IMG/VR virus record: IMGVR_UViG_3300034104_003015
Location: 1-42,313 of that record
DNA: 42,313 bases
Source of the DNA: a virus
Direction: 5' to 3' (one strand)
The position numbers were made by a program, and so were the translations under genes. The notes beneath the pieces were generated by a model that saw only the letters and a program-made list of their open reading frames with translations, was not told the DNA's origin and did no database searches. Shown here in pieces: positions 24,201-42,313 of the stretch (within the stretch, counting starts at the first letter, position 1; each line of letters opens with the position of its first letter).

Positions 24201-26918
24201 ATAAGTGGTCTTTCAGGAGCAAGTGGTGCTTCAGGAGCAAGTGGTCAAGTTGGTACATCTGGTATAAGTGGTTTATCAGGTGCTAGTGGTGCTTCAGGAC
24301 AAATAGGAACATCTGGTATTTCAGGACTAAGTGGTGCTAGCGGAGCTTCAGGTGCAAGTGGTGCGTCAGGAGCAAGTGGAATTAGCGGTTTATCAGGTGC
24401 AAGCGGTGCATCAGGACAAGTAGGAACAAGCGGTATTTCAGGTTTATCAGGCGCTAGTGGAGCAAGTGGTGCTTCAGGTGCAAGTGGTGCTTCAGGTGCT
24501 AGCGGTATTTCAGGTTTATCAGGCGCTAGTGGAGCAAGTGGTGCTTCAGGTGCAAGTGGTGCTTCAGGTGCTAGCGGTATTTCAGGTTTATCAGCTGCTA
24601 CTTCTATAACTAATAATGTTAATAATTATGTAGTAACAGCTACAGGAAATTCAGGTACTCCATTTAATGGAGAAGCAAATTTAACATTTGATGGTTCGAC
24701 ATTAGAAGTAAGTGGTTCAGCTCAAGTTTCTCGAATTTCATCAGCTACTACTACTTTATATAATACATATAGAGCAAATAATATTGAAGTTGGATATATA
24801 GGAAATGGAGAAGGATTAGTTAGTGGTGGTTCAGCTACATCTTTTGGTATTAGAGCAGAATCAGACATGATTTTTGCAATTACAAATACTACAAGAATGG
24901 TAATTTCAAGTAGTGGTAATGTAGGTATTGGTACTACAACTCCACAAGGTAAACTATCTATTGATGGTGGAAATATTAGATTTAACTATAATAATGCAGC
25001 CGCTAATTATTATATGTATTTAAATCATGCTAATGCTCAAGATGGTGGTATATTATTGTCTAGAGATAATTCCACATTAGATTGGCAGATGAGCAATGCA
25101 GCGTCATCAGGAGACTTTTTCTTATATTCATATGGTACTAGTGCTTCACCATTTTATATAACAAGAGCTAATGGTTATGTAGGTGTTGGATTAACATCAC
25201 CTCAAAAACCATTAGATGTATTTTCAAATGCTAATGATTTTGTTACTGTAGGTGCTTATCAATTAGGAGTAGGTCAATGGGCTGGTATACATTTTGGTTA
25301 TAGGGAAAATAATACAAATTATAGAAAATCAGCTATAGTATTCCAAAGAACAGACCTTACATCTGGAAATGCTCAAGGAAAGGTACATATATTAAATGGA
25401 CCACAAGCAGGTGCTGGAAGTGCTACTTTATCAGATGCTAAATTAACTATTGCTGAAAATGGTAATGTAGGTATTGGTTATACAAGTCCAGCAGCATTAT
25501 TACAAATTGGATATCAAAATACATCAGCTGAACTTTTAAGATTAGGTATTAATTACTCTGCTCAAAACTCTGAAAGAGGTGCTATTATTTGGCATGATGG
25601 TTCTGGAATAACAGGTAAAATTTGGAGTGAATATGATGGTACTAATACAAAATTAAATTTTGGTGGATTATATAATGGCTCTTATAATCAAGGAACTGTT
25701 TTAACTATTAATGGAAATAGTAATGTAGGTATAGGAACAGTAGACCCACTTTCTAAATTATATATAGAAGGAGGATCAGCAGATTGGAATGAAACAACTC
25801 CAGGTTTATCAGTAGGTACTATACATTTAGATCCAGGAGTAACTACTGATAACTTTGGAAACGCTATTACATTTGGAACTTCAGATTCAGCAGGTGGTAC
25901 ACAAGCACAAGCTGGAATATATATAAGATCAGATGGTGCGTATGGTACTAAAATGTATTTTGCTACTACAAATGCTTATATATCAGGAGCAAAAACAGCG
26001 ATGATGATAAATTCTGATGGTACTATAGGTGTAGGAACAACATCTCCACTTTCATCATTTGATGTTTTAAATAAAGTATTAATAGGAACTGATGGTACTT
26101 ATGGTTCAGGATATGGAATGATAGGTTTTGGTGGTACTACAAATGGATCAAATAGAATTATAGCTTCTCCCACGGGTACTGATGGTATATATATTATGGC
26201 TGCTACAAGTCGAGCAATATACTTTAGACCAAACGGAGGTACTACAGATACATTAATAGTAGGAGCTAATGGAGAATTAACACAATTAGAAACAATAAAT
26301 ATAAATGACTCAGTACCTTTAGCATTTACTAATACAGGTACTGGTAATAATCAAACATTAATATACGCTAATACAACTAATTACTTATTATTTGATGTTG
26401 CTGCTAATGCTCCTTATGTTAATTTTAAGAAAAGAGGACAAGCAACATCAACAATGTTCTTAGACACTACTAACTTTAGAGTAGGTATCAATAATAACAC
26501 ATCACCTGCTGTATCATTAGATGTTACTGGTGATATAAATGCTACAGGAGATATAGTAGCTTACGCTTCAGATGAAAGATTAAAAACAAATTTACAACCT
26601 ATAGAAAATGCTTTAGATAAAGTTAATACTTTAAGAGCAATTACTTATGAACAAAGTGAATTAGCTAATAAATATATGGAACCTAGACCATATAGACAAG
26701 CAGGGGTTATAGCTCAAGATGTACAAAAAGTATTACCTGAAGTAATAAAATTAGCTCCATTTGATACTACTAGAGATGAAAATAATAATATAGTAAGTAA
26801 AACAGGAGAAAATTATTTAACAGTACAATATGATAAATTAGTACCTTTATTAATTGCTTCAATTCAAGAATTAACTAATAAAGTAAATAGTTTAGAAGAA
26901 CAACTTAAAAATAAATAG
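21216..26918 (+). CDS. 1900-aa collagen-like tail fibre with S74 chaperone
   Basis: Residues 1-60 (KVKLRRSAIPGNKPTTTQLD, LGELAINTNDGKIYF) form the fibre attachment module common in T4-like phages. Residues about 60-545 are beta-rich with TGSL/SYAL repeats. Residues 566-847 are 94 uninterrupted Gly-X-Y triplets, and residues 953-1126 another 58, mostly Gly-(Leu/Ile/Ala/Thr)-Ser with no proline. Each tract ends in the same linker (SAATSIxNNVxNYxVTATGN). Then comes a long beta-structured receptor region with NVGIGTTxP-type repeats (about 1225-1780). The C terminus (S1785 in YASDERLKTN, then AGVIAQDVQKVLPEV) is an endosialidase-type intramolecular chaperone (Peptidase_S74) that trimerises the fibre and then cuts itself off. 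Confidence 0.92.
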   Translation: MSQKVKLRRSAIPGNKPTTTQLDLGELAINTNDGKIYFEKSSSLGESIQEVFVTDAWITGSLQVTGSNTLIGTTSLTGSLNVSGSTTQIGNNTLIGETVLSGSIIISGSGAPGSPTASVQIFGNTEQTGYLRFLPVTTNIDTSISASYIYVSGSTNDLYFSQNGEGYTNVTRLRWLEGNLYTGLLHGGVLSTASSTVYQISSGSGIIVNLNASLTDDPFPTIQYLNWGNLTASIAPLTASYQQAFVGIDSTNNIFQQGTPFSNGQFDVIINIGNVLFQNQSTINGVKTQPSVAYGAQQQQNVFNRAFGPLKLSGYTLAPSGSSTGGLIVGSGTAYAPGSNYIIDPNEPYYTVDNGTNISKIFRYYQSGSTWVYLTNAGAGFTTIDPSQYSNNGTLTPVQPNDWSIQRVFWFPNSVTKAIVVYYGNQSYSTEANAIANINIESFVEAPNTAANAIYLGAIIIRGNGVFTNASDFTIVPGGLFRQVGGSGGGGSIITQTLAGLSDVNISGPLNGQPLVYNNISTKWENSSTLTASLDGNATTATSASYALSSSYALTASFAITPTVSGLSGISGLSGISGLSGLSGISGLSGISGLSGTSGISGLEGTSGISGLSGQVGSSGLSGLSGTSGISGLEGTSGISGLSGASGQVGTSGISGLSGASGQVGASGISGLEGTSGLSGLSGASGASGQVGTSGISGLSGASGASGQIGTSGISGLSGASGISGLSGASGASGQVGTSGISGLEGTSGISGLSGQIGTSGLSGLSGTSGASGISGLSGASGLSGLSGASGASGQVGTSGLSGLSGASGASGASGASGQVGASGISGLSGASGASGQVGTSGISGLSAATSISNNVDNYIVTATGNSGTPFNGESLLQFDGQKLSVLYQSGDEGGEILLNKPVTNTSLTGSGITIDSYQNRIRFFEQGGTARGAYIDLTACLGGAGTNLLSGGASGLSGLSGASGASGQVGTSGISGLSGASGASGASGASGASGISGLSGASGASGASGQVGTSGISGLSGASGASGQIGTSGISGLSGASGASGASGASGASGISGLSGASGASGQVGTSGISGLSGASGASGASGASGASGASGISGLSGASGASGASGASGASGASGISGLSAATSITNNVNNYVVTATGNSGTPFNGEANLTFDGSTLEVSGSAQVSRISSATTTLYNTYRANNIEVGYIGNGEGLVSGGSATSFGIRAESDMIFAITNTTRMVISSSGNVGIGTTTPQGKLSIDGGNIRFNYNNAAANYYMYLNHANAQDGGILLSRDNSTLDWQMSNAASSGDFFLYSYGTSASPFYITRANGYVGVGLTSPQKPLDVFSNANDFVTVGAYQLGVGQWAGIHFGYRENNTNYRKSAIVFQRTDLTSGNAQGKVHILNGPQAGAGSATLSDAKLTIAENGNVGIGYTSPAALLQIGYQNTSAELLRLGINYSAQNSERGAIIWHDGSGITGKIWSEYDGTNTKLNFGGLYNGSYNQGTVLTINGNSNVGIGTVDPLSKLYIEGGSADWNETTPGLSVGTIHLDPGVTTDNFGNAITFGTSDSAGGTQAQAGIYIRSDGAYGTKMYFATTNAYISGAKTAMMINSDGTIGVGTTSPLSSFDVLNKVLIGTDGTYGSGYGMIGFGGTTNGSNRIIASPTGTDGIYIMAATSRAIYFRPNGGTTDTLIVGANGELTQLETININDSVPLAFTNTGTGNNQTLIYANTTNYLLFDVAANAPYVNFKKRGQATSTMFLDTTNFRVGINNNTSPAVSLDVTGDINATGDIVAYASDERLKTNLQPIENALDKVNTLRAITYEQSELANKYMEPRPYRQAGVIAQDVQKVLPEVIKLAPFDTTRDENNNIVSKTGENYLTVQYDKLVPLLIASIQELTNKVNSLEEQLKNK
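22911..23756 (+). repeat. Gly-X-Ser collagen-like tract 1 (94 triplets)
   Basis: A 282-residue tract with Gly at every third position. The Y position is almost always Ser, the exceptions being GLE, GQV and GQI triplets. At DNA level the codons for each triplet vary (tca/agt/tct; ggt/gga/ggc), so the 9-bp unit is far less repetitive than the protein. Confidence 0.95.
24072..24593 (+). repeat. Gly-X-Ser collagen-like tract 2 (58 triplets)
   Basis: A 174-residue tract in the same fibre, dominated by Gly-Ala-Ser blocks separated by GIS-GLS and GQV-GTS units. One block at about 24448-24593 contains a near-exact direct DNA repeat of roughly 75 bases, suggesting a recent duplication. Confidence 0.93.
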
Positions 26919-27946: not shown

Positions 27947-30232
27947 ATGAAACAAATTACAGTTATAATCCATACGGAAAGTGATCTGCTTTTAGATACA
28001 TTAATTGATACTTTAAGAATAAGTAATATAAGGGAGAACATAACTAACCTTTTAATAAATGCTAAAGGATGTACTCCTTGGACTAATGATATATTATTTC
28101 AAAAAATAATCTCTTTACCTAAGAATTATTATGAAATAACTCCTACAGAAAAATCTTCTACAAACTCAATAGTAGAACTTTTAACTAAAGTTAAAACAGA
28201 ACAAGTTTTAATATTACATGAAAATATATTACCGCTTATACCATTTAAAGAATGGGATAAAACGACTAATACTTATTTATTAGCGCCTACTAATGATTTA
28301 TTACGCCTTAATTGGGACAATAAATACAATTATATAAACGGGTTTATTGCGGATTTAATAACACAAAAAACAGGATATATCTTTGATATAAAAGATGAAC
28401 GTTATTTTAAAAAAGCAAAACATCCTTTACTTAATGAAAGAATAATTCATATAGGGGGTGGTTTAGGAGATCATGTTATGGCTTATCCTTTATTAGAAAA
28501 AATAGGAAAAGATGTTTATGTTTCTTGTGTTTATCCATTTGCTATAAGTCATATTAAAACTAAAGGGCAAATAGAATGGTCAGATGAATTATTTGGAGGT
28601 TATAATAGATTTGTTTATAATTATGGTTCTTCAAATAATACTCCTACTATAATAGATGCTTACTTTGAAATGTATGGAGAAAAAAGAGAAGAACAAGATA
28701 TACTAAAATACACAGGTCCTATAACTCCTTATGAAAAATATAAACCAATAGCTCTAATAAGTACAACAGCAGCTAAAATTGGAGGATTAGATTCAAATAA
28801 AGATTGGCCTGAAATTAGATGGTTTAAATTAATATATGAATTAAAACAATTAGGTTATCATGTTATACAAGTAGGTTCTTATAAAGATAATCAATTACCT
28901 TTATCTCCAGCTCCTGGAGGAGTAGATGAAAAATTTTTAGACAGATCAATTCCAGAATTAGCGGGCTTAATTGAAGCCTCAGATTTATGGTTAAGTGTAG
29001 ATACATTCTTTCATCATTTTGCTTCATCAGTAAAACCAGAAGTAGGAATATGTTTAACACCATTTTATAATAATCATGCTAAACATAAAAGAGTTACTTA
29101 CATAGAAAAAGATTGTGGTAAAGATTATTATGATAGAAGATGGTGGCTAGATTCACAACAACCAGAAAGAAAAGATTGTATGAATTTAATTACGGTAGAA
29201 GATGTTTTAAAAAAGATTAATAAACCTAATACTAAAAGAAAATATAAAGTAATATATTATAGTTTAGGACCTAAAGATAATTGTTCTAATTGGAGAGCTT
29301 ATATGCCATTTGATAGGACATCAGAACATATAGAATATAATATAATTGATTTAAATAATGATAAGTTTGATTTAGAAAGAGATAAACAAGTAGATATAGT
29401 AATATTTAATAGACCAGTAATAAATTTATTAGATTATATAAAAACATTACAATCATTTGGAGTTAAAGTTATAGTAGATTATGATGATGTATTTCCTTAT
29501 GTAGATTTAACTGAATCAGTTTTTATAACTGCTTATACAGAAATGTTAAGTATTTTACAACAAACTGATATGGTAATAACCACTAATAATACTTTAAAAT
29601 TTTATTTTGAGAAACATACTAAAAAACCAGTAGTTGTATTTCCTAATATAGTAAATCCTAATTATGTATCTATAAAAGAAGATAGAAAAGATAATAAAAT
29701 AATTTTAGGGTGGTATGGAAGTGGAGGTCATTTACCTTCATTAAAAATGATTAATAAAGATGTTTTAAAAATATTAGATAAGTTTGATAATGTATATTTT
29801 AATTTATATACAGATAATCAAGAAATAATAAATTTATTTAAACATTCTAAAACTACAGTATATCCTTATAATCATAATTTTAATCAATTCCAAAATAATT
29901 TAAATGATATAGATATTAATTTAGCACCATTAGAAGAAAACTATATTAATTTAGGAAAATCAGACATTAGAATACAATTAGCTGCGTTTAAAGAAATAGT
30001 GAGTATAGCTAGTAATTTTGGAGAATATAAAAATTTTGGGAAATTAAATAAAGGAGTTGTTTTAGTAGAAGATGATTGGTATAATGCTATTAAAGAATTA
30101 GTATCTAGTTCTAATAAATTACATAAACTTAAAGTTAACGCTTTAAAGACTATAAATGAATATTATAATTATGAAAAATGGTCTAATATAAAAGATCAAA
30201 CATTAATAAATTTAATAAATGACAAGAATTGA
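27947..30232 (+). CDS. Two-domain glycosyltransferase (GT9-like plus GT4-like)
   Basis: This 761-aa protein has at least two sugar-transfer modules. Residues 1-160 are an unassigned alpha/beta region that may be a degenerate GT-A domain. Residues about 164-420 resemble GT9 heptosyltransferases: RIIHIGGGLGDHVMAYPLLE, then STTAAKIGG...DWPEIRWFKL, VIQVGSYKDN and ELAGLIEASDLWLSVDTFFH. Residues about 425-760 resemble a GT4/GT-B fold: VKVIVDYDDVFPYV, VVFPNIVNPNYV, IILGWYGSGGHLPSL and INLAPLEENYINLGKSDIRI. Cytosolic, with no membrane span. Fusion of different GT families in one chain suggests sequential assembly of a short glycan. It overlaps the next gene by 14 nt. Confidence 0.85.
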   Translation: MKQITVIIHTESDLLLDTLIDTLRISNIRENITNLLINAKGCTPWTNDILFQKIISLPKNYYEITPTEKSSTNSIVELLTKVKTEQVLILHENILPLIPFKEWDKTTNTYLLAPTNDLLRLNWDNKYNYINGFIADLITQKTGYIFDIKDERYFKKAKHPLLNERIIHIGGGLGDHVMAYPLLEKIGKDVYVSCVYPFAISHIKTKGQIEWSDELFGGYNRFVYNYGSSNNTPTIIDAYFEMYGEKREEQDILKYTGPITPYEKYKPIALISTTAAKIGGLDSNKDWPEIRWFKLIYELKQLGYHVIQVGSYKDNQLPLSPAPGGVDEKFLDRSIPELAGLIEASDLWLSVDTFFHHFASSVKPEVGICLTPFYNNHAKHKRVTYIEKDCGKDYYDRRWWLDSQQPERKDCMNLITVEDVLKKINKPNTKRKYKVIYYSLGPKDNCSNWRAYMPFDRTSEHIEYNIIDLNNDKFDLERDKQVDIVIFNRPVINLLDYIKTLQSFGVKVIVDYDDVFPYVDLTESVFITAYTEMLSILQQTDMVITTNNTLKFYFEKHTKKPVVVFPNIVNPNYVSIKEDRKDNKIILGWYGSGGHLPSLKMINKDVLKILDKFDNVYFNLYTDNQEIINLFKHSKTTVYPYNHNFNQFQNNLNDIDINLAPLEENYINLGKSDIRIQLAAFKEIVSIASNFGEYKNFGKLNKGVVLVEDDWYNAIKELVSSSNKLHKLKVNALKTINEYYNYEKWSNIKDQTLINLINDKN

Positions 30233-32618
30233 TATTATCAATGCTTTAATTAAAAAGCATAATTATAAAACCTATGTAGAAATAGGAGTAAGAAATCCAG
30301 ACGATTGTTTTAGTCATATTAATTGTGAAACAAAACACGGTGTAGATCCTGGAGTAGAAGGTTCTTGGAAAGTTACATTTAATATGACTTCAGATGAATT
30401 TTTTAATTCTAATCCTCAAAAGTATGATATTATTTTTATAGATGGTCTTCATATAGATGATCAAGTAGAAAGAGATATTATTAATAGTTTAAATTATTTA
30501 AATGAAAATGGTTCTATAATATTACATGATTGTAATCCACCTACAATACATCATGCTAGAGAAAATTATTATGATGTATCTACACCAGCTTCAGGAGATT
30601 GGAATGGAACTGTATGGAAAGCTATAGTTAAAGTAAGATCTGAACTAGATAATATTTACACAAGTGTAGTTGATACAGATTGGGGAGTAGGAATTATACA
30701 AAAATCAAATAAAGGAAATAAAATTATAAATGATAATCCTTACTATACTTATGAAAAATTTTCATCTAATAGAAAACATTATTTAAATTTAATCACTCCA
30801 GATGAATTTTTAGAACAATATATAGGAGTTGAATTACAGCCTACAAGTTCTAAACCTAATATCACTTGGTTAGCAAAATATGATGATTATTCTTCAATGG
30901 GTATTTTATCTCAAAGAATATTAGAACAGTTAGATAAACGAGATTATAATTTAGCTTGTAAAGCTATAATTGGCACTACTGAAACTGAAAATCCTTTAAT
31001 ATATGATTTATTAAGTAAAACACCTAAAAAGGATATAGGAATAATGTTTTCGTATCCTGATATGATAGGATATTTAGATGAATTTAAAACTAAAGTAATT
31101 TATACAGGTGTTGATACAACAGATGAGGCAGGAAATTTTGTAGAAAATGCTAATAAAGTAGATTATTTATTTACACCTTCAAAATTATCTAAAAAAAGAA
31201 TAGAAAATATGGGTGTTAAAAAACCTGTGTTTGTTTTACCTCATGGTATTGATCCTGAAGTATTTAAATATACTGAAAGAACTAAAACCGATATATTTAA
31301 GTTTTTATATATAGGAGAATGTTCAGATAGAAAAGGTATATTTCATTTATTAAAAGCATTTACTGATTTATTTAAAAATAATCCTAAAGTAGAATTACAT
31401 ATTAAATCAAATACTGATATGTTATTTTATAATAGTAAAGAAGTACAAGATATTATAAAAGATTATAAAAATATATTTTGGCATATTGGTAATGTAGGAC
31501 ATGATGAAGTAATTAAGTTATATAAAGAATGTCATGCTTATGTTTATCCTTCTAGAGGAGATTCATTTGGAATGACTTTATTAGAAGCAATGGCGTGTGG
31601 GTTACCTATAATTACTACTAAATTACCAGGAGCAACAGATGTAGTAGATGGTAAAGTTACTTATATAAAATCAAAAATAGTTCCAGTACAAGGTCATCCA
31701 TGGTTTAAAGGAGAATGGGGTGAACCTGATTTAGAAGATTTAAAATCTAAAATGAAATTATTATATAAAAATTATAATACTTCTAAACTAAAAGAATATT
31801 CTGATTTTATTAGAGAAAATTATTCTTGGGAAAAAATAGCTGATAAATTTGAACAAGAAATATTACCTAGATTAGGTAAAAAAACTAAAGTATTAACATT
31901 ACTTACTTCTTATAATAGACCGCATCATATTAAAAATGTGATTCAATCATTAAAAGAAATTGAAGAACAAGATGTTATAAATGATGTTTATATAGTTGAA
32001 AATTCAAATCCTGAATATAAAGAAGAATGTTTAAATATAATAAATAAAAATACTGACGGTAGATTTATATTATATAATTCTAAATTTAATTTAGGACAAC
32101 GTGGTTCATTACTTCAAATGTTAGATGATATAAATATAGATGAATATGATTATATTCAATTTACAGATCAAGATAATATATTTATAGAACCTATCAGTAC
32201 ATACTGTAATATATTAGATCAATATGATAAATATTTTGTATCAACAGGTTATATGAGTAAAGAACATACTGAAATGAATTGGATAAATAATCAATGGGGT
32301 AATTTATGTGAAAAAAGAACATGTAGAGCAGGACATATGATGTTTAGATCTAATGATATAAAAAGTTTATTACCTATATATTTAGACAGTCAACATAATG
32401 AACCTAGAGTTAACTCATCATGGAATGCCGGTTTAGATTGGGAATTAACTTATTGGAACCCTAAATCACCAGGATTTTTAACTTCAGATAATTTTATAAT
32501 ATGTGTTCCTGGTGGAGTAATACATAAAGGTATAGATAGTACTATATATGAATGGCCAGTAGAAGAAAATGAATATACTTTAGAAGAATTAAAAAAATTA
32601 CGAAATAAGATTAATTAA
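30219..32618 (+). CDS. Methyltransferase-GT4-GT2 fusion protein
   Basis: This 799-aa protein has three domains. Residues 1-165 are a class I SAM-dependent methyltransferase (KTYVEIGVRNPDD as motif I; YDIIFIDGLHIDDQVERDI, GSIILHDCNPP). Residues about 207-540 are a GT4 glycosyltransferase (FLYIGECSDRKGIFHLLKAF; SRGDSFGMTLLEAMACGLPI with the donor-binding E-x7-E pattern). Residues about 548-790 are a GT2/GT-A domain (LTLLTSYNRPHHIKNVIQSL; DYIQFTDQDN as a DxD-like metal site). Together with the preceding gene, 14 nt overlapping, this gives four or five transferase modules and a methyl-capping activity. I infer synthesis of a methylated glycan, with fibre or virion proteins as the nearest possible acceptors. 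Confidence 0.87.
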   Translation: MTRIDIINALIKKHNYKTYVEIGVRNPDDCFSHINCETKHGVDPGVEGSWKVTFNMTSDEFFNSNPQKYDIIFIDGLHIDDQVERDIINSLNYLNENGSIILHDCNPPTIHHARENYYDVSTPASGDWNGTVWKAIVKVRSELDNIYTSVVDTDWGVGIIQKSNKGNKIINDNPYYTYEKFSSNRKHYLNLITPDEFLEQYIGVELQPTSSKPNITWLAKYDDYSSMGILSQRILEQLDKRDYNLACKAIIGTTETENPLIYDLLSKTPKKDIGIMFSYPDMIGYLDEFKTKVIYTGVDTTDEAGNFVENANKVDYLFTPSKLSKKRIENMGVKKPVFVLPHGIDPEVFKYTERTKTDIFKFLYIGECSDRKGIFHLLKAFTDLFKNNPKVELHIKSNTDMLFYNSKEVQDIIKDYKNIFWHIGNVGHDEVIKLYKECHAYVYPSRGDSFGMTLLEAMACGLPIITTKLPGATDVVDGKVTYIKSKIVPVQGHPWFKGEWGEPDLEDLKSKMKLLYKNYNTSKLKEYSDFIRENYSWEKIADKFEQEILPRLGKKTKVLTLLTSYNRPHHIKNVIQSLKEIEEQDVINDVYIVENSNPEYKEECLNIINKNTDGRFILYNSKFNLGQRGSLLQMLDDINIDEYDYIQFTDQDNIFIEPISTYCNILDQYDKYFVSTGYMSKEHTEMNWINNQWGNLCEKRTCRAGHMMFRSNDIKSLLPIYLDSQHNEPRVNSSWNAGLDWELTYWNPKSPGFLTSDNFIICVPGGVIHKGIDSTIYEWPVEENEYTLEELKKLRNKIN

Positions 32619-33461: not shown

Positions 33462-36400
33462 ATGGCAAAAGTACTGTCTAATTCAGGTATTGTAACAGGT
33501 GATATTGTACAAGCTCAACACGTTTCTCAATCAGTAAATGCTTTAACAGGGGTTGAAGCTTATGATATAACAATAAGTGGTTCATTAACTGTAATTGGTC
33601 CTGTAGATGTATCAGGTAATATTACAGCTCCATCATTTACTGGAACTGCTTCATACGCTGGAACTTCATTAACAGCTACAACAGCATCTTATGCATTAAC
33701 TGCTTTATCATCTTCATATGCTCTTACAGCATCATTTGCTGTTACTCCTACTGTATCTGGTTTATCAGGTATTAGTGGTATAAGTGGTATCTCAGGATTA
33801 TCAGGTCTATCTGGTCTTTCAGGTATATCAGGTTTAAGTGGTATATCAGGTCTATCTGGTCTTTCAGGTATATCAGGTTTAAGTGGTATATCAGGATTAA
33901 GTGGTATTTCAGGTTTGTCAGGAATATCAGGTATTAGTGGTATATCAGGATTGTCAGGAATATCTGGTATCTCAGGTATTTCAGGATTAAGTGGTTTATC
34001 TGGTATAAGCGGTATTTCAGGGTTATCAGGTATTAGTGGTATATCAGGATTGTCAGGAATATCTGGTATAAGTGGTTTATCAGGAGCTATAGGCCCAGTA
34101 GCTGGTTCAGCTAATCAAGTAGTTTATAAAGACGGATCTAATAATCCAGCGGGTTCAAATAACTTTACTTATGATGGAACTACAGTAACTATAACAGGTA
34201 ATTTAACAGTTAATGGAACTGGTAGTATAACATATTTAAATACAATATACGAAACAGCATCTGTAATATATTCATCTGGTTCTAATCAATTTGGTGATGC
34301 TACAGATGATATTCAATTATTAATAGGAACTACTAAAATATCAGGTAGTTTACAAGTAACAGGTAGTACTTCTTTATCAGGTAGTTTACAAGTAATAGAT
34401 GTACCTCAAGGTACAAATGAAACTAAAGTAGTAATGTTAGATAATTCTAACAATTTAGTTTATAGAACAAATTTAAGTATTTCAGGTATAAGTGGTATAT
34501 CAGGTATATCAGGATTGAGCGGTGTTTCAGGCTTAAGTGGCATATCAGGTCTAAGTGGAATTTCAGGTTTGTCTGGTATTTCAGGTCTATCTGGTCTTTC
34601 AGGTATATCAGGTTTAAGTGGTATATCAGGTCTATCTGGTATTTCCGGATTATCAGGAGTTTCAGGTTTAAGCGGCATATCAGGATTATCAGGTCTATCT
34701 GGTCTTTCAGGAATATCAGGTCTTTCAGGCATATCAGGTCTAAGTGGAATATCAGGCATCTCAGGACTTTCAGGTCTAAGTGGTATATCAGGATTATCTG
34801 GAGTTTCAGGTTTAGAAGGAACTTCAGGTATTTCAGGTCTTATTGGTATACCAGTATTTACACCTGTATTTTCAAATACTTCTTATGGAGTTGATTCTTC
34901 AACATTTATAAACACTGGAGGTAGTGGAAGTAGTTTTGATGCTTATGTTTATTCAACTCAAGGGTATAGAAGAGGAGCTTATGTCACTGCTAAAACAACT
35001 AGTAACTCACAATTCTCAGCTTTTGGTTTATCTGAGACTATAAGTTCTGCTAATCCTTTAGATATAAGTTTTGGACTTTACTTTGAAGAAACTACAGGTG
35101 ATGTATCTATAATTGAAACAGGTTCAATAGGATCACCAATATCAACATATTCATCAGGAGATACTTTTTATATAACATATGATGGTTATAATATAAGATA
35201 TTATATAAATAATACTTTACTACAAACTACTTCAAGAGCACTAGGTAACTCATTATATTTCAGTTCAGTTTATCGAACAGCCAATGAAGGATTTACTAAT
35301 GTAGGTTTTGGACCTATGGGTGAACAAGGTACTTCAGGTATTTCAGGTTTATCAGGCATTTCAGGCATCTCTGGTTTATCAGGTATTTCAGGTTTATCAG
35401 GCATTTCAGGCCTATCAGGTTTATCAGGTCGTTCAGGTCTTTCAGGTACAGCTGGAACTTTAACTTTAACAGGAACAACAGATAATGGTGTTATAACATT
35501 AAATGGAACTGCGCCTAACGCGACTGTAGAATCTAATTTAACATTTGATGGCACTGTTTTAAATATCACAGGTCGAATAACAAGCAGCGGAGATCTATTA
35601 GTTAATGGTATAGTGGTAGGTAGAGGAAAAGGAAATGATGATTCAAATGTAGTTTTAGGTAGGATAGCATTAGTTTCTAATACATTTGGAATACAAAATA
35701 CAGCAATAGGTACAGCGGCATTAAATGCTAATTTAGGAGGAAGTAATAATACAGCAGTAGGATATTCTACATTATTAAGTAATCAAGGAGGTTCTCAAAA
35801 TACAGCAATAGGTCAATATGCCTTATTAACCAATAGTTCAGCAAATGAAAATACAGCTATAGGTTTTTCTGCAATGTATGAAAATACAGTAGGAGCTAGT
35901 AATGTAGCTATAGGTGTAGATGCTCTAAAAAATAATAAAGGAGGTTCTAGTATTGTTGCTATAGGAAAAGATGCTATGTTATATTATTCAACGTTTACCA
36001 ACGCAACTTTAATAGGTTCAGTAGCTGTAGGAGCAGGAGCATTAGTAGGTTCATCATTTGGAAATAACACAGCACAATATAATACAGCAATAGGATATGA
36101 ATCCTTAGCTATAACTAATACAGGAGCAAATAACACAGCACTTGGAGCATTTGCTTTAAGATATAACATTAATGGTGGTAAAAATACAGCGGTAGGATAT
36201 CAAAGTATATTTTCAAATAATACATCTGTTGAAAATACAGCAGTAGGATACCAAGCTATGTATACTTCAAGTGGTAATTATAATGTTGCTGTTGGTAATG
36301 AAGCTTTATATGGTAGTATTATTTCATCTCCAAATGGTTCTAATAATATAGCTGTAGGATATAGAGCTTTACAATTACTATCCACTGCGAATAATAACAC

Positions 36401-37148
36401 ATCTATAGGTTATACAGCGGGACAAAATATAACAACCGGTTCAAATAATACTCTTTTAGGATATAGAGCAGGAAATGGAATTACTACAGGATTTAACAAT
36501 ACACTTGTAGGATATAATACTGGAACAACTATTAATACAGGAACTCATAATACTATTTTAGGTTTATATGAAGGTGCTAATATAAGTAGAACAGTAATTT
36601 TAGCGGATGGAAATGGTATAATTTATTTATATGCTACTGGAAGTAAAACAGCAATAAATAAATCAGAAACACCTAATGCAACATTAGATGTTAATGGTAA
36701 TACAATAATCACAGGCTCATTAACAGTAACAGGACCTATAAGAAATATTGTAAATGATGGATTTGTAAGTTGTAGTTTATCAACTTCAGGAACTGGAGCT
36801 GATAGAACTATATTAGCTACATTTAATGAAGTAGATGGAACTGCTTTAACTAATCCACGTCAATTAGTACATTGGTGGACGTCAACATCACAATTTGGAG
36901 AAGCGGCTAGAACATTTGGTAGTCCAACTACAGTTACACCGGTTTTCTCAGTGACTACAGGTAGTAATGTGACACCTATAGCAAGTACTTCAGGCTCAAT
37001 AAATCACGCTGTGACTAACACATCAGGTCAATTAGGTTTAAGATTAACAACAAGTAATACAGCAGGATCAGCTACAGTATGGTTTCATACAGAAGTACAA
37101 GGTATAATATATTCAATAAGCACAACTATATTTAATACAGGAGCATAA
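33462..37148 (+). CDS. 1228-aa collagen-like fibre with YadA-like repeats
   Basis: The N terminus (AKVLSNSGIVTGDIVQAQHV) is followed by SYALTALSSSYALTASFAVT, almost identical to the segment that precedes the first Gly-X-Ser tract of the 1900-aa fibre. Three tracts follow: residues 100-207 (36 triplets), 342-458 (39) and 623-661 (13), mainly GLS and GIS with no proline. Between tracts are beta domains (residues about 460-620). Residues about 740-1040 carry many copies of NTAIGxxAL/NTAVGYxxL, resembling the YadA head beta-roll. The C terminus (NPRQLVHWWTSTSQFG to SISTTIFNTGA) is unassigned and lacks an S74 chaperone. It is probably a second, separately evolved adhesin. Confidence 0.88.
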   Translation: MAKVLSNSGIVTGDIVQAQHVSQSVNALTGVEAYDITISGSLTVIGPVDVSGNITAPSFTGTASYAGTSLTATTASYALTALSSSYALTASFAVTPTVSGLSGISGISGISGLSGLSGLSGISGLSGISGLSGLSGISGLSGISGLSGISGLSGISGISGISGLSGISGISGISGLSGLSGISGISGLSGISGISGLSGISGISGLSGAIGPVAGSANQVVYKDGSNNPAGSNNFTYDGTTVTITGNLTVNGTGSITYLNTIYETASVIYSSGSNQFGDATDDIQLLIGTTKISGSLQVTGSTSLSGSLQVIDVPQGTNETKVVMLDNSNNLVYRTNLSISGISGISGISGLSGVSGLSGISGLSGISGLSGISGLSGLSGISGLSGISGLSGISGLSGVSGLSGISGLSGLSGLSGISGLSGISGLSGISGISGLSGLSGISGLSGVSGLEGTSGISGLIGIPVFTPVFSNTSYGVDSSTFINTGGSGSSFDAYVYSTQGYRRGAYVTAKTTSNSQFSAFGLSETISSANPLDISFGLYFEETTGDVSIIETGSIGSPISTYSSGDTFYITYDGYNIRYYINNTLLQTTSRALGNSLYFSSVYRTANEGFTNVGFGPMGEQGTSGISGLSGISGISGLSGISGLSGISGLSGLSGRSGLSGTAGTLTLTGTTDNGVITLNGTAPNATVESNLTFDGTVLNITGRITSSGDLLVNGIVVGRGKGNDDSNVVLGRIALVSNTFGIQNTAIGTAALNANLGGSNNTAVGYSTLLSNQGGSQNTAIGQYALLTNSSANENTAIGFSAMYENTVGASNVAIGVDALKNNKGGSSIVAIGKDAMLYYSTFTNATLIGSVAVGAGALVGSSFGNNTAQYNTAIGYESLAITNTGANNTALGAFALRYNINGGKNTAVGYQSIFSNNTSVENTAVGYQAMYTSSGNYNVAVGNEALYGSIISSPNGSNNIAVGYRALQLLSTANNNTSIGYTAGQNITTGSNNTLLGYRAGNGITTGFNNTLVGYNTGTTINTGTHNTILGLYEGANISRTVILADGNGIIYLYATGSKTAINKSETPNATLDVNGNTIITGSLTVTGPIRNIVNDGFVSCSLSTSGTGADRTILATFNEVDGTALTNPRQLVHWWTSTSQFGEAARTFGSPTTVTPVFSVTTGSNVTPIASTSGSINHAVTNTSGQLGLRLTTSNTAGSATVWFHTEVQGIIYSISTTIFNTGA
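33759..34082 (+). repeat. Gly-X-Ser tract B1 (36 triplets)
   Basis: Residues 100-207 of the second fibre. Only GLS and GIS units, with scrambled synonymous codons. Gly is at every third position without a break. Confidence 0.95.
34485..34835 (+). repeat. Gly-X-Ser tract B2 (39 triplets)
   Basis: GLS/GIS with a few GVS and one GLE-GTS unit near the end. Located between two beta domains of the second fibre. Confidence 0.95.
35328..35444 (+). repeat. Gly-X-Ser tract B3 (13 triplets)
   Basis: Short third tract, GTS-GIS-GLS units with one GRS. It leads into the beta domain that precedes the YadA-like repeats. Confidence 0.92.
35690..36590 (+). repeat. YadA-head-like NTAIG/NTAVG repeats
   Basis: About 14 to 18 degenerate units of the form NTAIGxxAL, spaced roughly 14 to 25 residues apart with variable inserts. 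This pattern is known from trimeric autotransporter heads and some phage fibres, where it forms a left-handed beta-roll. Confidence 0.8.
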
Positions 37149-37470: not shown

Positions 37471-39171
37471 ATGGCAGAAACATTAATTTCCCCTGGTGTA
37501 TTAGCAAGAGAAAATGATCAATCATTTATCAGACAACAACCAGTTTCAGTAGGAGCAGCAATTATAGGCCCTACAGTTAAAGGTCCAGTTGAAATTCCAA
37601 CTCTTGTTACTTCATATAGTGACTACGTAAATAAATTTGGTGATGTATTAGAAAGCGGAAGTGATAATTATTCATTTTTAACTTCTATAACAGCATATAA
37701 CTACTTTAACAATGGTGGTACTTCATTATTAGTCGCTAGAGTAGTAAGTGGTTCTTACACTTCAGCTACAAGTACAACAATTGGAAGTATAGGAGCTACA
37801 GCTTCAGCGGCAATTGAATTAAAAACTATATCTGAAGGAACTATAATGAATAGTTCATCTTCTTTAGATGTAAGTGGTTCATTAGCGTCAGGATCAACTG
37901 ATAATATTAGATGGCAAATCTTAAATTCTGATACAGCATCAGGAACATTTAGTTTATTAATTCGTCAAGGTGACGATAACACAAACAATCCAGTTGTTTT
38001 AGAAACTTGGACTGGATTATCATTAGATCCATTCTCTCCAAACTTTGTTTCTAGAGTATTAGGTGATCAAGTACAAAATTACAACTCAGCTACAAACCAA
38101 TTAGAAACATCAGGATCTTACTTTAATAATTCACGTTATGTATATGTAAGTGCAGTTAATAATTTAACTCCTCGTTATTTTAATAACAATGGTATAGCAA
38201 AATCACAATATACAGCTTCAATACCTCAAAATGCAAGTGGTTCATTTAGTGGAGCTACAGGTACTATAAAAGCAGGAGCTAATTTTTATAACGCAATCAA
38301 TTCATCTAACACACAAGGATTAGTAGGTGCTAATTATGATGATATGATTGATTTATTAGCTAACCAAGATGAGTATAGATTTAATGTTATATTAACTCCA
38401 GGCTTAATAAATTCAATACATACTACTCAATGTACTTCAATTATAACAAATACTCAAACTAGAGGTGATAGTTTATATGTATTAGATTTAGTAGAATATG
38501 CTAAAACAGTAAATGATGTTACATCACAAGCTAATTCAAGAAATACTTCATATGCTACTTCATACTGGCCTTGGGTTCAAATATTAGACCCAGGTACTGG
38601 TAAGAACGTTTGGGTTCCAGCTTCAACAGTAATAGGTGGTGTTTACGCATTTAACGACTCAGTAGCAGAGCCTTGGTTTGCACCAGCAGGTATAAATAGA
38701 GGTGGATTACAAGTAATTAGAGCAGAACAAAAATTACCACAATCTTCAAGAGATACATTATATACAAATAAAGTAAATCCTATAGCTACATTCCCTGGAA
38801 CAGGTACAGTAGTATATGGTCAGAAAACATTACAAACTCAAGCATCAGCTTTAGACAGAGTAAATGTTAGAAGATTATTAATTGCTCTTAAAAACTATAT
38901 TTCACAAGTTGCTAACACATTAGTATTCGAACAAAATACAATTGCAACAAGAAACGCATTTTTAAGTCAAGTTAATCCATACTTAGAATCAGTACAACAA
39001 AGACAAGGTCTATACGCATTTAGAGTAATTATGGATGATTCAAATAATACAGCAGATGTAATTGATAGAAATCAATTAGTAGGTCAGATTTATATCCAAC
39101 CAACAAGAACAGCTGAATTTATTTACTTAGACTTTAACATATTACCAACTGGAGCAACATTTCCAGCGTAA
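37471..39171 (+). CDS. 18: Tail sheath protein (gp18-like)
   Basis: This 566-aa contractile sheath subunit shows the family pattern: ETLISPGVLARENDQSFIRQ at the N terminus, VGAAIIGPTVKGPVEIPTLV, a FGDVLES...NYFNNGGTSLLVARVV segment (about residues 56-92), WPWVQILDPGTGKNVWVPAS, and the conserved C-terminal core (RLLIALKNYISQVANTLVFE, YAFRVIMDDSNNTADVIDRN, QIYIQPTRTAEFIYLDFNI). The subunits form the sheath around the tube and contract to drive injection. T4 gp18 is longer (659 aa), mainly from surface domains; here the surface insert is roughly residues 95-270. Confidence 0.96.
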   Translation: MAETLISPGVLARENDQSFIRQQPVSVGAAIIGPTVKGPVEIPTLVTSYSDYVNKFGDVLESGSDNYSFLTSITAYNYFNNGGTSLLVARVVSGSYTSATSTTIGSIGATASAAIELKTISEGTIMNSSSSLDVSGSLASGSTDNIRWQILNSDTASGTFSLLIRQGDDNTNNPVVLETWTGLSLDPFSPNFVSRVLGDQVQNYNSATNQLETSGSYFNNSRYVYVSAVNNLTPRYFNNNGIAKSQYTASIPQNASGSFSGATGTIKAGANFYNAINSSNTQGLVGANYDDMIDLLANQDEYRFNVILTPGLINSIHTTQCTSIITNTQTRGDSLYVLDLVEYAKTVNDVTSQANSRNTSYATSYWPWVQILDPGTGKNVWVPASTVIGGVYAFNDSVAEPWFAPAGINRGGLQVIRAEQKLPQSSRDTLYTNKVNPIATFPGTGTVVYGQKTLQTQASALDRVNVRRLLIALKNYISQVANTLVFEQNTIATRNAFLSQVNPYLESVQQRQGLYAFRVIMDDSNNTADVIDRNQLVGQIYIQPTRTAEFIYLDFNILPTGATFPA

Positions 39172-39216: not shown

Positions 39217-39705
39217 ATGGCAATTTTAGATCCAAACGAAATATTTTTCACAGCATTTGAACCAAAACAACAAAATCGTTTTGTAATGTATGTAGATGGT
39301 ATTCCTGCTTACATAATTAAAGGAGTAAGTGCAGTGACTGTAACAAACGATACTGTTGTATTAAACCACATAAACGTTCAACGTTTTGTTAAAGGAAAAA
39401 GCAAATGGGGTCCTATTACAATGACATTATTTGATCCTATCACTCCTTCAGGTGCTCAAGCAACAATGGAATGGTTCAGATTACATCACGAATCAGTAAC
39501 AGGTAGAGATGGTTACTCAGACTTCTATAAGAAAGATTTAACATTTGATGTTATTGGTCCAGTAGGTGATATCGTTTCAGAATGGATTGTTAAAGGAGCA
39601 TTAATTACTGAATTAAATTTTGGTGATTATAACTACGATAACGAATCAGCAGCACAGGAAATAACATTAACTGTACAACCTGACTACTGTATATTAAACT
39701 TCTAA
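39217..39705 (+). CDS. 19: Tail tube protein (gp19-like)
   Basis: This 162-aa protein has the same length as T4 gp19 (163 aa). QQNRFVMYVDGIPAYIIKGV, WGPITMTLFDPITPSGAQAT and the acidic LITELNFGDYNYDNESAAQE stretch with ITLTVQPDYCILNF at the end are typical. Hexamers stack to form the inner tube surrounded by the gp18 sheath. It has its own motif and is followed by a terminator, so it can be expressed at a level independent of the downstream hub genes. Confidence 0.95.
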   Translation: MAILDPNEIFFTAFEPKQQNRFVMYVDGIPAYIIKGVSAVTVTNDTVVLNHINVQRFVKGKSKWGPITMTLFDPITPSGAQATMEWFRLHHESVTGRDGYSDFYKKDLTFDVIGPVGDIVSEWIVKGALITELNFGDYNYDNESAAQEITLTVQPDYCILNF

Positions 39706-39734: not shown

Positions 39735-39766
39735 AAGCTCACCCTTTGGTGAGCTTCTTATTTTCT
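39735..39766 (+). terminator. Intrinsic terminator after tail tube gene
   Basis: AAGCTCACC (39735-39743), loop CTTT, GGTGAGCTT (39748-39756), then CTTATTTTC. A strong 9-bp stem. Confidence 0.88.
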
Positions 39767-39800: not shown

Positions 39801-40553
39801 ATGGAAGAAAACAAATTCAAAATCCCTACAGAAACGATTGAATTACCATCAAAAGGATTGCTATATCCTGAATCAAACCCGTTATCAAGCGGTAAAATCG
39901 AAATGAAATATATGACGGCGAAAGAAGAAGATATTCTTACTAACGCGTCTTATATCAAACAAGGTATTGTTATTGACAAACTATTACAATCATTAATTGT
40001 TACTAAAGTTAATTATGGTGATTTATTAGTAGGAGATAAAAATGCTTTAATGATAGCCGCTCGTATTTTAGCTTATGGTGCTAAATATACTTTCTCTTAT
40101 GACGGAGAAGAACAAACAGTAGATTTATCTAATTTAGATGCTAAACCATTAGCTAATGAATTAAAAAACAGTAATGGTAATAATAATTTTAGTTACACAT
40201 TACCTGATTCAGGAAATATTGTTACCTTTAAATTATTAACTCATGAAGATGAGCAAAAAATAGATGCTGAAATAAAAGGTCTTAAAAAAATAAATAAAGA
40301 TGCATCAAATGAAGGTGTAACTAGATTATGTCATATTATAACTTCAATTAATGGTGATAGTGAACAAAAAGCTATTAGAGATTTTGTAAACAATTATATG
40401 TTAGCTAAAGAAGCAAGAGCATTTAGACAATATTATGCCTCTATATCTCCAGACATTAATTTAACAGTTTTAGTTACTAACTCAAATGGTGTTGAGGAGG
40501 ACATTGAGTTACCAATTAATATTAACTTTTTTTGGCCTGACGCCAGAGCATAG
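39801..40553 (+). CDS. 26: Baseplate hub/tail-assembly protein (gp26-like)
   Basis: This 250-aa protein begins with TIELPSKGLLYPESNPLSSG, then KIEMKYMTAKEEDILTNASY and VIDKLLQSLIVTKVNYGDLL, LVGDKNALMIAARILAYGAK. This is the pattern of the T4_baseplate (gp26-type) family, whose members I regard as hub/tail-assembly chaperones. The end, ELPININFFWPDARA, stops at a TAG at 40551. A run of seven T (40527-40533) lies just before the stop and joins the overlapping downstream frame by a +1 (or -2) shift. Placed directly upstream of the tape-measure candidate, this is where tail chaperones with frameshifts occur in other phages. Assignment to gp26 is by pattern. Confidence 0.8.
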   Translation: MEENKFKIPTETIELPSKGLLYPESNPLSSGKIEMKYMTAKEEDILTNASYIKQGIVIDKLLQSLIVTKVNYGDLLVGDKNALMIAARILAYGAKYTFSYDGEEQTVDLSNLDAKPLANELKNSNGNNNFSYTLPDSGNIVTFKLLTHEDEQKIDAEIKGLKKINKDASNEGVTRLCHIITSINGDSEQKAIRDFVNNYMLAKEARAFRQYYASISPDINLTVLVTNSNGVEEDIELPININFFWPDARA

Positions 40554-40785
40554 ATTTTTATTATTTAGCGAAATCCATGATATAGTATTTCATGGTAATG
40601 GTGGATATGATTGGTATACTATATATAACATGCCAATATGGTTAAGAAAATTTACATATAATAAAATAAAAGACTATCATACTCCTAAAAAAGATGATGT
40701 AGTAGAAGAATCTATTAAAAATTTAAAATCGGCTCCAATGCCAATTAGAAAACCATCATATACAACAAGGGCATCTAAAAAATAG
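40486..40785 (+). CDS. Overlapping downstream chaperone frame (gp51-like)
   Basis: This frame holds a 99-aa ORF if started at ATG 40486, overlapping the previous gene by 68 nt in the +1 frame. The compelling part begins after the T7 run: GLTPEHRFLLFSEIHDIVFH, then GGYDWYTIYNMPIWLRKFTY, resembling the short W/Y-and-R-containing C-terminal domains of tail-assembly chaperones (gp51-like in T4-type phages). The first 15 residues (MVLRRTLSYQLILTF) look like random translation of the gp26 frame. So the product may be made mostly as a gp26-fusion by frameshifting at 40527-40533. Alternatively, it starts at ATG 40486 or TTG 40504. The end overlaps the terminator hairpin. Confidence 0.65.
   Translation: MVLRRTLSYQLILTFFGLTPEHRFLLFSEIHDIVFHGNGGYDWYTIYNMPIWLRKFTYNKIKDYHTPKKDDVVEESIKNLKSAPMPIRKPSYTTRASKK
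40527..40533 (+). other. Candidate +1/-2 slippery run of seven T
   Basis: In the gp26 frame it reads AAC-TTT-TTT-TGG. A shift of +1 on TTT gives TTT-GGC-CTG-ACG and continues as the overlapping frame. A -1 shift would not reach that frame. Confidence 0.5.
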
Positions 40786-40794
40786 ATGCCTTTA
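40770..40794 (+). terminator. Terminator overlapping the end of the chaperone frame
   Basis: GGCATCT (40770-40776), loop of seven A/T, AGATGCC (40784-40790), then TTTAATATTT. The stem contains the TAG stop of the frame. The T tract runs into the next TATTTAT motif. Confidence 0.6.
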
Positions 40795-40819: not shown

Positions 40820-42313
40820 ATGGCTGATAATACAGGCAACGAAGCTAAAAAAAATCTAAAAGAAATTAATGAGATAGTAAGTGCTATAGACTCAGGATTT
40901 AGATCAATTTCATCTAGATTAGAAGATGTAGCAGATATTATATCTAATACTAATAATGATGCTCGTGTATTTAAAAATATTATCAATGATGTAGGACGTT
41001 CAATTAATAGGTTAAGTAAACAAAATGAAAGTTTAATTGATAATCAAATTAAATTAAATCAAGGTTTATTAACATCTAAAAAAGTTAGAGAACAAATTAA
41101 TAATCTTGAAGCTACTAGAAATGTTTTAGAAAGTAGATTAAAAACATTAAGAGATCAACAATTAGATGGTTTAATATTAAATAAAGAACAATTAAATGAG
41201 ATTAAAAATCTTGAAACAGAATTAGCACAACAATCTCAGGATGTTACATTACGATATGAAGATCAATTAAAAAAACTTGAAAAAATTGAAACTAAATTAG
41301 GTATATTTGGTAGATTAACTAAAGGTTTATCTAAAATACCATTAGTAGGAGATTTACTTGATGCTGAAGGAGCTTTACAAGCAATGAATAAATCAGCTTT
41401 AAAAAGTGAATCTTTATTTAAAAATTTAGGAGCAGGAATATCAGCTGCGTTTAAAGGTATAGAAAGAGCATCAGTTATATTAACTTTATTTTCTGTTGTT
41501 AAAGAAATTATTGATTTTATCAAAGATGCTATGTTTGCTATGGATGAGCGAACAACAAATATAGCTAAAAATTTAAGTATAAGTAAAGATTCAGCCGCTG
41601 GTTTATATTCTAGTTTAACTAAATTAAAAGGAACATTAGAAACTGAATTAGGTACTACTAAAAATATAGTTGAAGCATTTAATGATTTAGCTGGTATAAC
41701 TGAATTTACTACTATAGCTACAGATAAACAAATTGATGCTCAAATCATATTAACTAAAGAATTAGGTTTATCTAAAGAAGCAGCTTTAGGTTTTCAAGAA
41801 AGTTTAGCAGTATCAAATACTGAAGCAACTAAAGGTGTAGATATAGTTTATGATCAAATAGCTGCATTTGCTAATCAAAATAAAATAGTAGCAGATGGTA
41901 GAAAAATATTTGATCAAATAAATAAAACAAGTAAATTAATTCAACTTAATTTTAAAGGTAATATTCCGTTATTAACTAAAACTATTTTAGAAGCAAATAA
42001 ATTAGGTCTATCTTTAGACCAAGTTGATAAAATAGCAGGTTCATTATTAGATTTTGAATCATCAATATCAGCAGAACTTGAAGCTGAATTACTAACTGGA
42101 AGAAATATTAATTTAGAACGAGCTAGATTATTTGCTTTAAATAATGATATAGCTGGTTTAACTAAAGAAATAGCTAATCAAGGTATTAATGCCGCTAATT
42201 TTGCTTCAATGAATCGAATTCAACAAGAAGCAATAGCTAAAGCTTTAGGAATGAGTGCTTCTGAGTTAGGAGATTCATTATATAAACAAGAATTAATTAA
42301 TAAAGTAGCAGGT
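40820..42313 (+). CDS. Probable tail tape measure protein, N-terminal part
   Basis: An open frame from ATG 40820 runs to the end of the window (498 residues, incomplete). Residues 1-160 are helical coiled coil (NLKEINEIVSAIDSGFRSIS; EQINNLEATRNVLESRLKTL). A hydrophobic helix lies at about residues 205-235 (ASVILTLFSVVKEIIDFIKD). The rest alternates helices of the type TKELGLSKEAALGFQESLAV and AELEAELLTGRNINLERARL. This long helical plan with one hydrophobic region, directly after the tail tube and chaperone genes, is what tape measure proteins show; they set tail length and are ejected with the DNA. I infer this role from architecture and position. Confidence 0.75.
   Translation, partial: MADNTGNEAKKNLKEINEIVSAIDSGFRSISSRLEDVADIISNTNNDARVFKNIINDVGRSINRLSKQNESLIDNQIKLNQGLLTSKKVREQINNLEATRNVLESRLKTLRDQQLDGLILNKEQLNEIKNLETELAQQSQDVTLRYEDQLKKLEKIETKLGIFGRLTKGLSKIPLVGDLLDAEGALQAMNKSALKSESLFKNLGAGISAAFKGIERASVILTLFSVVKEIIDFIKDAMFAMDERTTNIAKNLSISKDSAAGLYSSLTKLKGTLETELGTTKNIVEAFNDLAGITEFTTIATDKQIDAQIILTKELGLSKEAALGFQESLAVSNTEATKGVDIVYDQIAAFANQNKIVADGRKIFDQINKTSKLIQLNFKGNIPLLTKTILEANKLGLSLDQVDKIAGSLLDFESSISAELEAELLTGRNINLERARLFALNNDIAGLTKEIANQGINAANFASMNRIQQEAIAKALGMSASELGDSLYKQELINKVAG

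Follow-up and report, generated by a model that had tools for sequence, protein, structure and literature searches.

Genes 26 and 51, according to what is reported of the work of Vladimirov, Gautam and Davidson (2022, Virology 566:9-15), encode the tail assembly chaperones (TACs) of T4-like phages; frameshifting is said to occur in some T4-like groups, and T4 itself reportedly has separate genes. That study is cited for poly-T −1 signals in PMC12846349, and for T4-like phages with separate short and long genes in PMC10885494. Frameshifts in chaperone genes located 5′ of the tape measure gene are classical and mostly −1, with a −2 shift in phage Mu and a +1 shift thought very likely in the archaeal virus HSTV-2 (PMC5009743). 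Poly-T close to the end of the gp26-type chaperone (TAC-N) has been described, also by comparative inference, in Vandenendeviridae and Andersonviridae such as phage Adele, where the shift is −1 (PMC12846349), unlike the +1 shift considered here.

The locus analyzed here lies in a viral stretch of 42,313 nt (IMG/VR record IMGVR_UViG_3300034104_003015, positions 1 to 42,313; hereafter the window), in which comparative sequence analysis makes it likely that one gene gives rise to two tail assembly chaperones through a +1 ribosomal shift at a U7 tract. The window and the T4-like TACs have in common the TAC-N family, short and long forms (predicted in the window), a C-terminal extension that is probably homologous, being linked via −1-type profiles, and a position adjoining the tape measure gene, which holds for several T4-like members. 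In contrast, T4 uses two separate genes, and other T4-like groups shift by −1 at U_UUU_UUY with a Shine–Dalgarno (SD)-like sequence about 9 nt upstream, whereas the extension in the window is in the +1 frame. A sequence-only reading of the window had taken a frameshift joining this chaperone pair to be undescribed. This is too broad, as T4-like TACs and frameshifting in some of them had been described in 2022; what stands is that the literature searched, which did not cover Vladimirov et al. (2022), contained no description of a +1 version. Chaperone frameshifting itself being well known, any novelty is confined at most to the +1 direction and its signals.

A T4-like structural module with an overlapping frame

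The window represents a T4-like structural module that also encodes the large terminase, the portal and the major head protein. Features at and around the chaperone gene are as follows, with the basis of each assignment in brackets.

37471-39171, plus strand: tail sheath protein, gp18-like (PF17482, PF04984, phrog_23)
39217-39705, plus strand: tail tube protein, gp19-like (phrog_4542, E = 2e-24)
39735-39756, plus strand: terminator-like hairpin 5′ of the chaperone gene (consensus match only)
39801-40553, plus strand: TAC-N, gp26-type tail assembly chaperone of 250 aa in the zero frame, stop TAG at 40551-40553 (PF12322, phrog_150)
39801-40785, plus strand: TAC-NC, predicted frameshift product of 327 aa with the junction NINFF-GLTPEHR (translation of the sequence minus one base of the tract)
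40486-40533, plus strand: spurious N-terminus of the mechanical ORF that begins at ATG 40486 (+1 frame unconserved and often closed by stops in relatives)
40495-40500, plus strand: AGGAGG, SD-like, 26 nt 5′ of the tract (kept by synonymous choice, GAG GAG)
40503-40526, plus strand: hairpin region of relatives, the 24 nt 5′ of the tract, weak or absent in the window (synonym permutation)
40527-40533, plus strand: T7 shift site, TTT TTT TGG in the zero frame and TTT TTT GGC in the +1 frame (sequence and relatives)
40534-40785, plus strand: TAC-C, gp51-C-type helical extension of 83 aa in the +1 frame, stop at 40783-40785 (conservation, model and homology)
40767-40793, plus strand: terminator-like hairpin across the TAC-C stop (consensus match; low folding energy in relatives too)
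40820-42313, plus strand, cut by the window end: gene after the TAC, presumed tape measure (position)

Genes are thus ordered from sheath to tube to TAC to the presumed tape measure gene, whose own family matches are weak. The gene so placed in phage immuto bears the annotation tail tape measure protein, and a tape measure gene is annotated 3′ of the TAC in LIS04 and SP-15 as well. The overlap that the sequence-only reading had described at the end of the gp26-type gene is confirmed: TAC-N ends in NINFFWPDARA*, the second ORF (40486-40785) overlaps it in the +1 frame, and the T7 run lies in the phase TTT TTT TGG. Elsewhere in the window, two long proteins (21216-26918 and 33462-37148) contain collagen-like repeats and are likely tail fibres, the former having an endosialidase-type chaperone domain at its C-terminus, and glycosyltransferase/methyltransferase genes and a dehydrogenase-like gene (27947-32618 and 590-1900) adjoin the structural genes.

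TAC-N matches PF12322 (E = 6e-6; 26.5 bits with a cut-off of 24.5) and phrog_150 (E = 1.8e-12), as do both gp26 and gp51 of T4. Direct comparison of the TAC-N profiles from relatives with +1 and −1 extensions gave a weak match (24.9% probability), and the kinship of these two groups is drawn from PF12322 and phrog_150. No solved structure was matched by the TAC-N sequence, and its AlphaFold2 model (mean pLDDT 92) gave nothing significant against solved structures in Foldseek. In a second structural comparison against 810 chains, 5 of which had a Z score of at least 2, the top match was YqbN (3klu, Z 6.4), with the HK97 tail assembly chaperone second (2ob9, Z 5.2) and a Vibrio PICI-like protein third (5ir0, Z 4.5), all three on residues 1-94. 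These middling scores support rather than prove a chaperone-like fold of the modeled protein. Among viral models the top match was to the SP-15 baseplate hub subunit (E = 4e-18).

The AlphaFold2 prediction for TAC-C is helical, with a domain beginning 4 residues past the shift and block-mean pLDDT values of 83-92 across residues 1-50; comparison with solved structures gave no meaningful match. Profile comparison relates TAC-C to SP-15-type extensions (P = 1.4e-8) and, with a probability of 86%, to −1-type extensions (P = 5e-6), whose profile in turn matches T4 gp51 at its end (P = 1.7e-5). Because the direct comparison of TAC-C with T4 gp51 is not significant (hhalign, P = 0.32), the gp51-like partner named in the sequence-only reading can be upheld only via these intermediates. 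T4 gene 51 holds both domains, TAC-N and the C-terminal extension, and its product is best seen as the fused long form. An unselected open frame of 83 codons would have a chance of about 4e-4 at the base composition found here, and conservation of the extension across the clade makes such an origin untenable.

SD sequences are missing at most of the 28 gene starts checked in the window, where the mean best anti-SD energy is 0.7 versus −1.6 for random 20-mers, which suggests an SD-independent host. Taken together with the binning of related contigs with Flavobacteriales and with the host of phage immuto, which infects Flavobacterium, this indicates that the host of the window virus may belong to the Bacteroidota. 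In Flavobacterium johnsoniae initiation seldom uses SD sequences and prfB shifting is weak (PMC12421855).

Shift site and reading frame in relatives

We retrieved 80 IMG/VR loci with gp26-type relatives, and later scans brought in distant relatives; a scan with the RM378 protein matched RM378 itself and nothing else. All but four of the 80 loci carry TTTTTTTGG in the same phase, and the remaining four (L046, L049, L059 and L066) carry TTTCTTTGG in that phase instead. Loci that extend far enough all have the homologous downstream segment in the +1 frame, starting at or beside the tract. Sorted by the frame of the extension, the dereplicated loci fall into a +1 class of 120 and a −1 class of 82; the class was set by open-frame length past the stop, and nine loci open in both frames were placed in the +1 class after inspection of their +1 peptides. 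The T run is mostly kept across the +1 class, with TTTTTTT in 91 of the 120 loci and mostly TTTTTTC, TTCTTTC or TTTCTTT in the remainder.

The switch of frame is best seen in 89 aligned TGG-type sites. Upstream of the tract the +1 frame contains stops (at codon −4 in 23 of the 89), and the 12 codons directly after the tract contain none, whereas stops in the zero frame follow the tract (47/89 at codon 6 and 67/89 at codon 8). Amino-acid identity in the +1 frame rises at the tract from about 0.2 to 0.85-1.0. This jump, the helical model and the conserved extension agree with the earlier judgment that the second frame resembles a protein domain only from GLTPEHR onward, and the unconserved, often stop-closed frame before the tract bears out the view that the stand-alone N-terminus is spurious.

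Shift sites of the +1 class read UUU UUU UGG, UUU CUU UGG or UUU/UUC UUU CGU, and 117 of the 120 permit cognate or prfB-like +1 re-pairing under a scoring rule that also counts CUU_U. Both +1 and −2 re-pairing are permitted at 110 sites. The −2 alternative is impossible at 10, of which seven, in sister lineages (L089, L180, L185, L190, L197, L203 and L206, with TTC TTT CGT/CGC/CAT), permit +1 re-pairing only, and L083 (AAC TTT CTA, hence UUU_C), judged by hand, is an eighth such site, leaving L194 and L201 as the exceptions to +1 re-pairing; TTTCTTT permits −2 as well as +1 if prfB-like first-position wobble is accepted. UUU_Y is absent from the junction in L194, L200 and L201, which have AAT CCC AGT there and may have gone over to a CCC-type +1 site of the kind used by Listeria phage PSA. 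In prfB (RF2) and at the UUU_Y/CUU_U sites of the YopN-TyeA proposal, a rhizobial ICE and PA-X, a P-site UUU or CUU is followed by a pyrimidine, as it is here. UUU_Ynn is +1-prone in bacteria, and the UUU CGU of the SP-15-like subgroup also forms the core of the PA-X shift site of influenza, UCC_UUU_CGU (PMC5009743).

Among named phages, immuto (site TTT CTT TGG), Mel-JY01, LR756508, RM378, LIS04, SP-15 and GXN1 have a +1-frame extension, and Melnitz, Sf-FS3, RL38J1, IC12, Cygsa01, XacN1 and LR756511 have a −1-frame one; in addition to many environmental viral contigs, the +1 clade, a large and for the most part uncultured group with contractile tails, includes phages of Flavobacterium, Rhodothermus, Bacillus, Listeria and Streptococcus. 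Relatives of genes 26 and 51 elsewhere (cyanophage-like) also have the homologous extension joined by −1. Almost all −1 sites read NNT TTT TTY (U_UUU_UUY), and a T directly precedes the tract at 80 of the 81 −1 sites that could be located versus 7 of 120 +1 sites as located; in the window this base is C. A tree of 108 TAC-N proteins, from which the last 10 residues had been cut off, separates the +1 and −1 classes (SH-aLRT 99), a main split that alone is trustworthy in this quick tree with several long branches; the frame label requires 4 changes on it versus about 32 in shuffles.

Three −1 rows (L090, L091 and L132) sit on the +1 side of the tree. L090 and L091 are relatives from large-genome phages, and L091 (XacN1) has GCT TTT TTT A, a −1-type heptamer. 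In L132 the gp26-like gene end (about 2200-2350) reads TTC TTC TGG, with the extension in the other frame; either a single-base indel or a real change may underlie this. Its use as a natural control, in which the T run is lost and the frame changed, was discarded in view of a possible single-base indel downstream.

Sequence signals upstream of the tract

Within the last 16 codons before the tract, Glu is encoded by GAG in 81 of 125 cases, compared with 126 of 1046 in the gene body. Third-position GC, mostly below 0.25 further upstream, reaches about 0.8 at both codon −10 and codon −9, and codon −1 stands at 0.91. The outcome of this biased codon choice is AGGAGG. In the group of the window, the mean energy of the duplex with the anti-SD sequence is lowest for spacers between 23 and 26 nt (−6.0 versus a background of 0.8 kcal/mol, n = 59). 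The minimum of the Mel-JY01-like group is at 24-27 nt (−3.45, n = 38), that of the SP-15-like group is weak, and that of the −1 class is at 9 nt (−4.8, n = 78). Stimulation of −1 shifting by an SD-like sequence close to 9-nt spacing is known from dnaX, and members of the −1 class (e.g., L092, L093 and L211-L290) show a dnaX-like layout with the SD-like sequence about 9-10 nt 5′ of U_UUU_UUY. The presence of an SD-like sequence upstream is also a point of likeness to prfB; however, prfB has a stop codon in the A site and its SD-like sequence at 3 nt, whereas the sites described here have no A-site stop and an SD-like sequence at 23-26 nt, often with a hairpin between. At the prfB-type spacing of about 3 nt, the +1 class has just a weak anti-SD minimum (3-4 nt).

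In the three +1 subgroups alike, the real sequences of the 24 nt preceding the tract form more stable folds than within-column synonymous permutations do, with z values of −3.6, −4.8 and −3.4 (0/100 permutations each) compared with −1.2 in the −1 class, values that ignore relatedness and are indicative. Control windows were mostly near zero, those at codons −30 to −23 of the SP-15-like subgroup and −45 to −38 of the −1 class being at about −2 to −3. Where both elements occur, the distance from AGGAGG to the tract with the hairpin formed would mostly be 3-10 nt. The window has AGGAGG and almost no hairpin, the last 30 nt before the tract folding at −0.3 kcal (L001, of identical sequence).

A pairing between the AGGAGG region and the sequence 3′ of the tract was rejected, own pairs being no better than swapped pairs in the group of the window. 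RNA structure downstream was also rejected as a stimulator: folding z values in 60-nt windows from +0 to +60 are modest (−0.3 to −1.0), and the strongest downstream signal (z −1.8, at +240) falls in the terminator region. In relatives, too, folding energy is low between about +210 and +300 relative to the tract.

As far as we can tell, these upstream signals of +1 sites are new. We tentatively raise the possibility of a composite +1 signal, in which AGGAGG 23-26 nt upstream is looped to the shift codon by the hairpin, in SD-poor phages whose hosts may lack SD initiation, together with a switch between −1 and +1 at the same junction in the evolution of the family. This raises the question of how AGGAGG could act in hosts such as Flavobacterium, in which SD initiation is rare and prfB shifting weak (PMC12421855).

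Proposed mechanism and alternatives

The frame, the junction, the conserved tract with its upstream elements and the homology of the extension are all supported by the comparison of sequences. From these we infer that the ribosome, rather than RNA polymerase, would shift, and by +1 rather than −2. The majority of ribosomes would stop at 40553 and release the short form, TAC-N, and a minority would move one base forward at the U7 tract, with the P-site tRNA-Phe passing from UUU to the overlapping UUU (UUC in some relatives); reading on in the +1 frame would then produce the long form, TAC-NC, with its 83-aa helical extension. As with lambda gpG/gpGT, in which a short form and a minor frameshift-extended form are encoded 5′ of the tape measure gene, the short copies, in large number, and the few long ones may together coat the tape measure protein and recruit the tube protein. 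AGGAGG, with the hairpin 3′ of it in many relatives, probably tunes the shift rate.

The sequence-only reading had allowed +1 or −2 for the slip, and T7 alone does permit either; the programmed shift into the +1 frame itself has strong support from the comparison of sequences. A Mu-like −2 ribosomal shift at the same tract, for which TTT TTT T allows perfect re-pairing and phage Mu provides a precedent (PMC5009743), would give a fusion with one extra Phe (FFF-GL). We regard −2 as unlikely, since the seven TTC TTT CGT/CGC/CAT sites and L083 re-pair at +1 alone and a single mechanism for the entire clade is simpler; the clade is most simply explained by a +1 move of tRNA-Phe on UUU_Y, which is known to be +1-prone, and this accounts for the sites better than −2 does. 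The T7 run would also in principle allow the polymerase to lose one U, aided by the upstream hairpin, so that normal translation yields the fusion. Loss of one base with a hairpin directly 5′ of a U run occurs in a Roseiflexus insertion sequence (PMC5009743), and each of the three +1 subgroups shows a hairpin signal 5′ of the tract. However, members with TTCTTTC, TTTCTTT or AACTTTC keep the frame with homopolymers of at most 3, the subgroup with TTCTTTC members also has the hairpin signal, and the hairpin of the window itself is negligible, which together render transcriptional slippage distinctly improbable.

There is very little probability that the downstream ORF is a separate gene, expressed from its own start or by re-initiation after the TAC-N stop. 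The earlier statement that the second frame has no good start needs qualification, because ATG 40486 is in frame in the window, and some records annotate separate small ORFs; yet between the last stop and the tract end ATG, GTG and TTG are all missing from the +1 frame in 56 of the 120 relatives. The +1 frame before the tract is unconserved and often closed, and the first internal ATG of the extension is usually near residue 33, within the conserved domain. That the second ORF has no ribosome-binding site proves nothing, since nearly all genes in the window lack such a site.

With the +1 ribosomal shift as the preferred reading, one gene family apparently has three routes to the same chaperone pair, namely two genes (T4), a −1 shift (cyanophage-like groups) and a +1 shift (this clade), and the family offers a natural experiment on how the direction of frameshifting is set and changed. 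The finding also corrects annotations in which the extension is absent or truncated. In the database records examined it is unannotated, truncated or given as a separate ORF: immuto and SP-15 have a truncated separate ORF and Mel-JY01 an overlapping separate ORF, and none of these three records (L081 4157-4267, L082 4007-4243 and L088 2021-2140) joins the extension to the chaperone gene.
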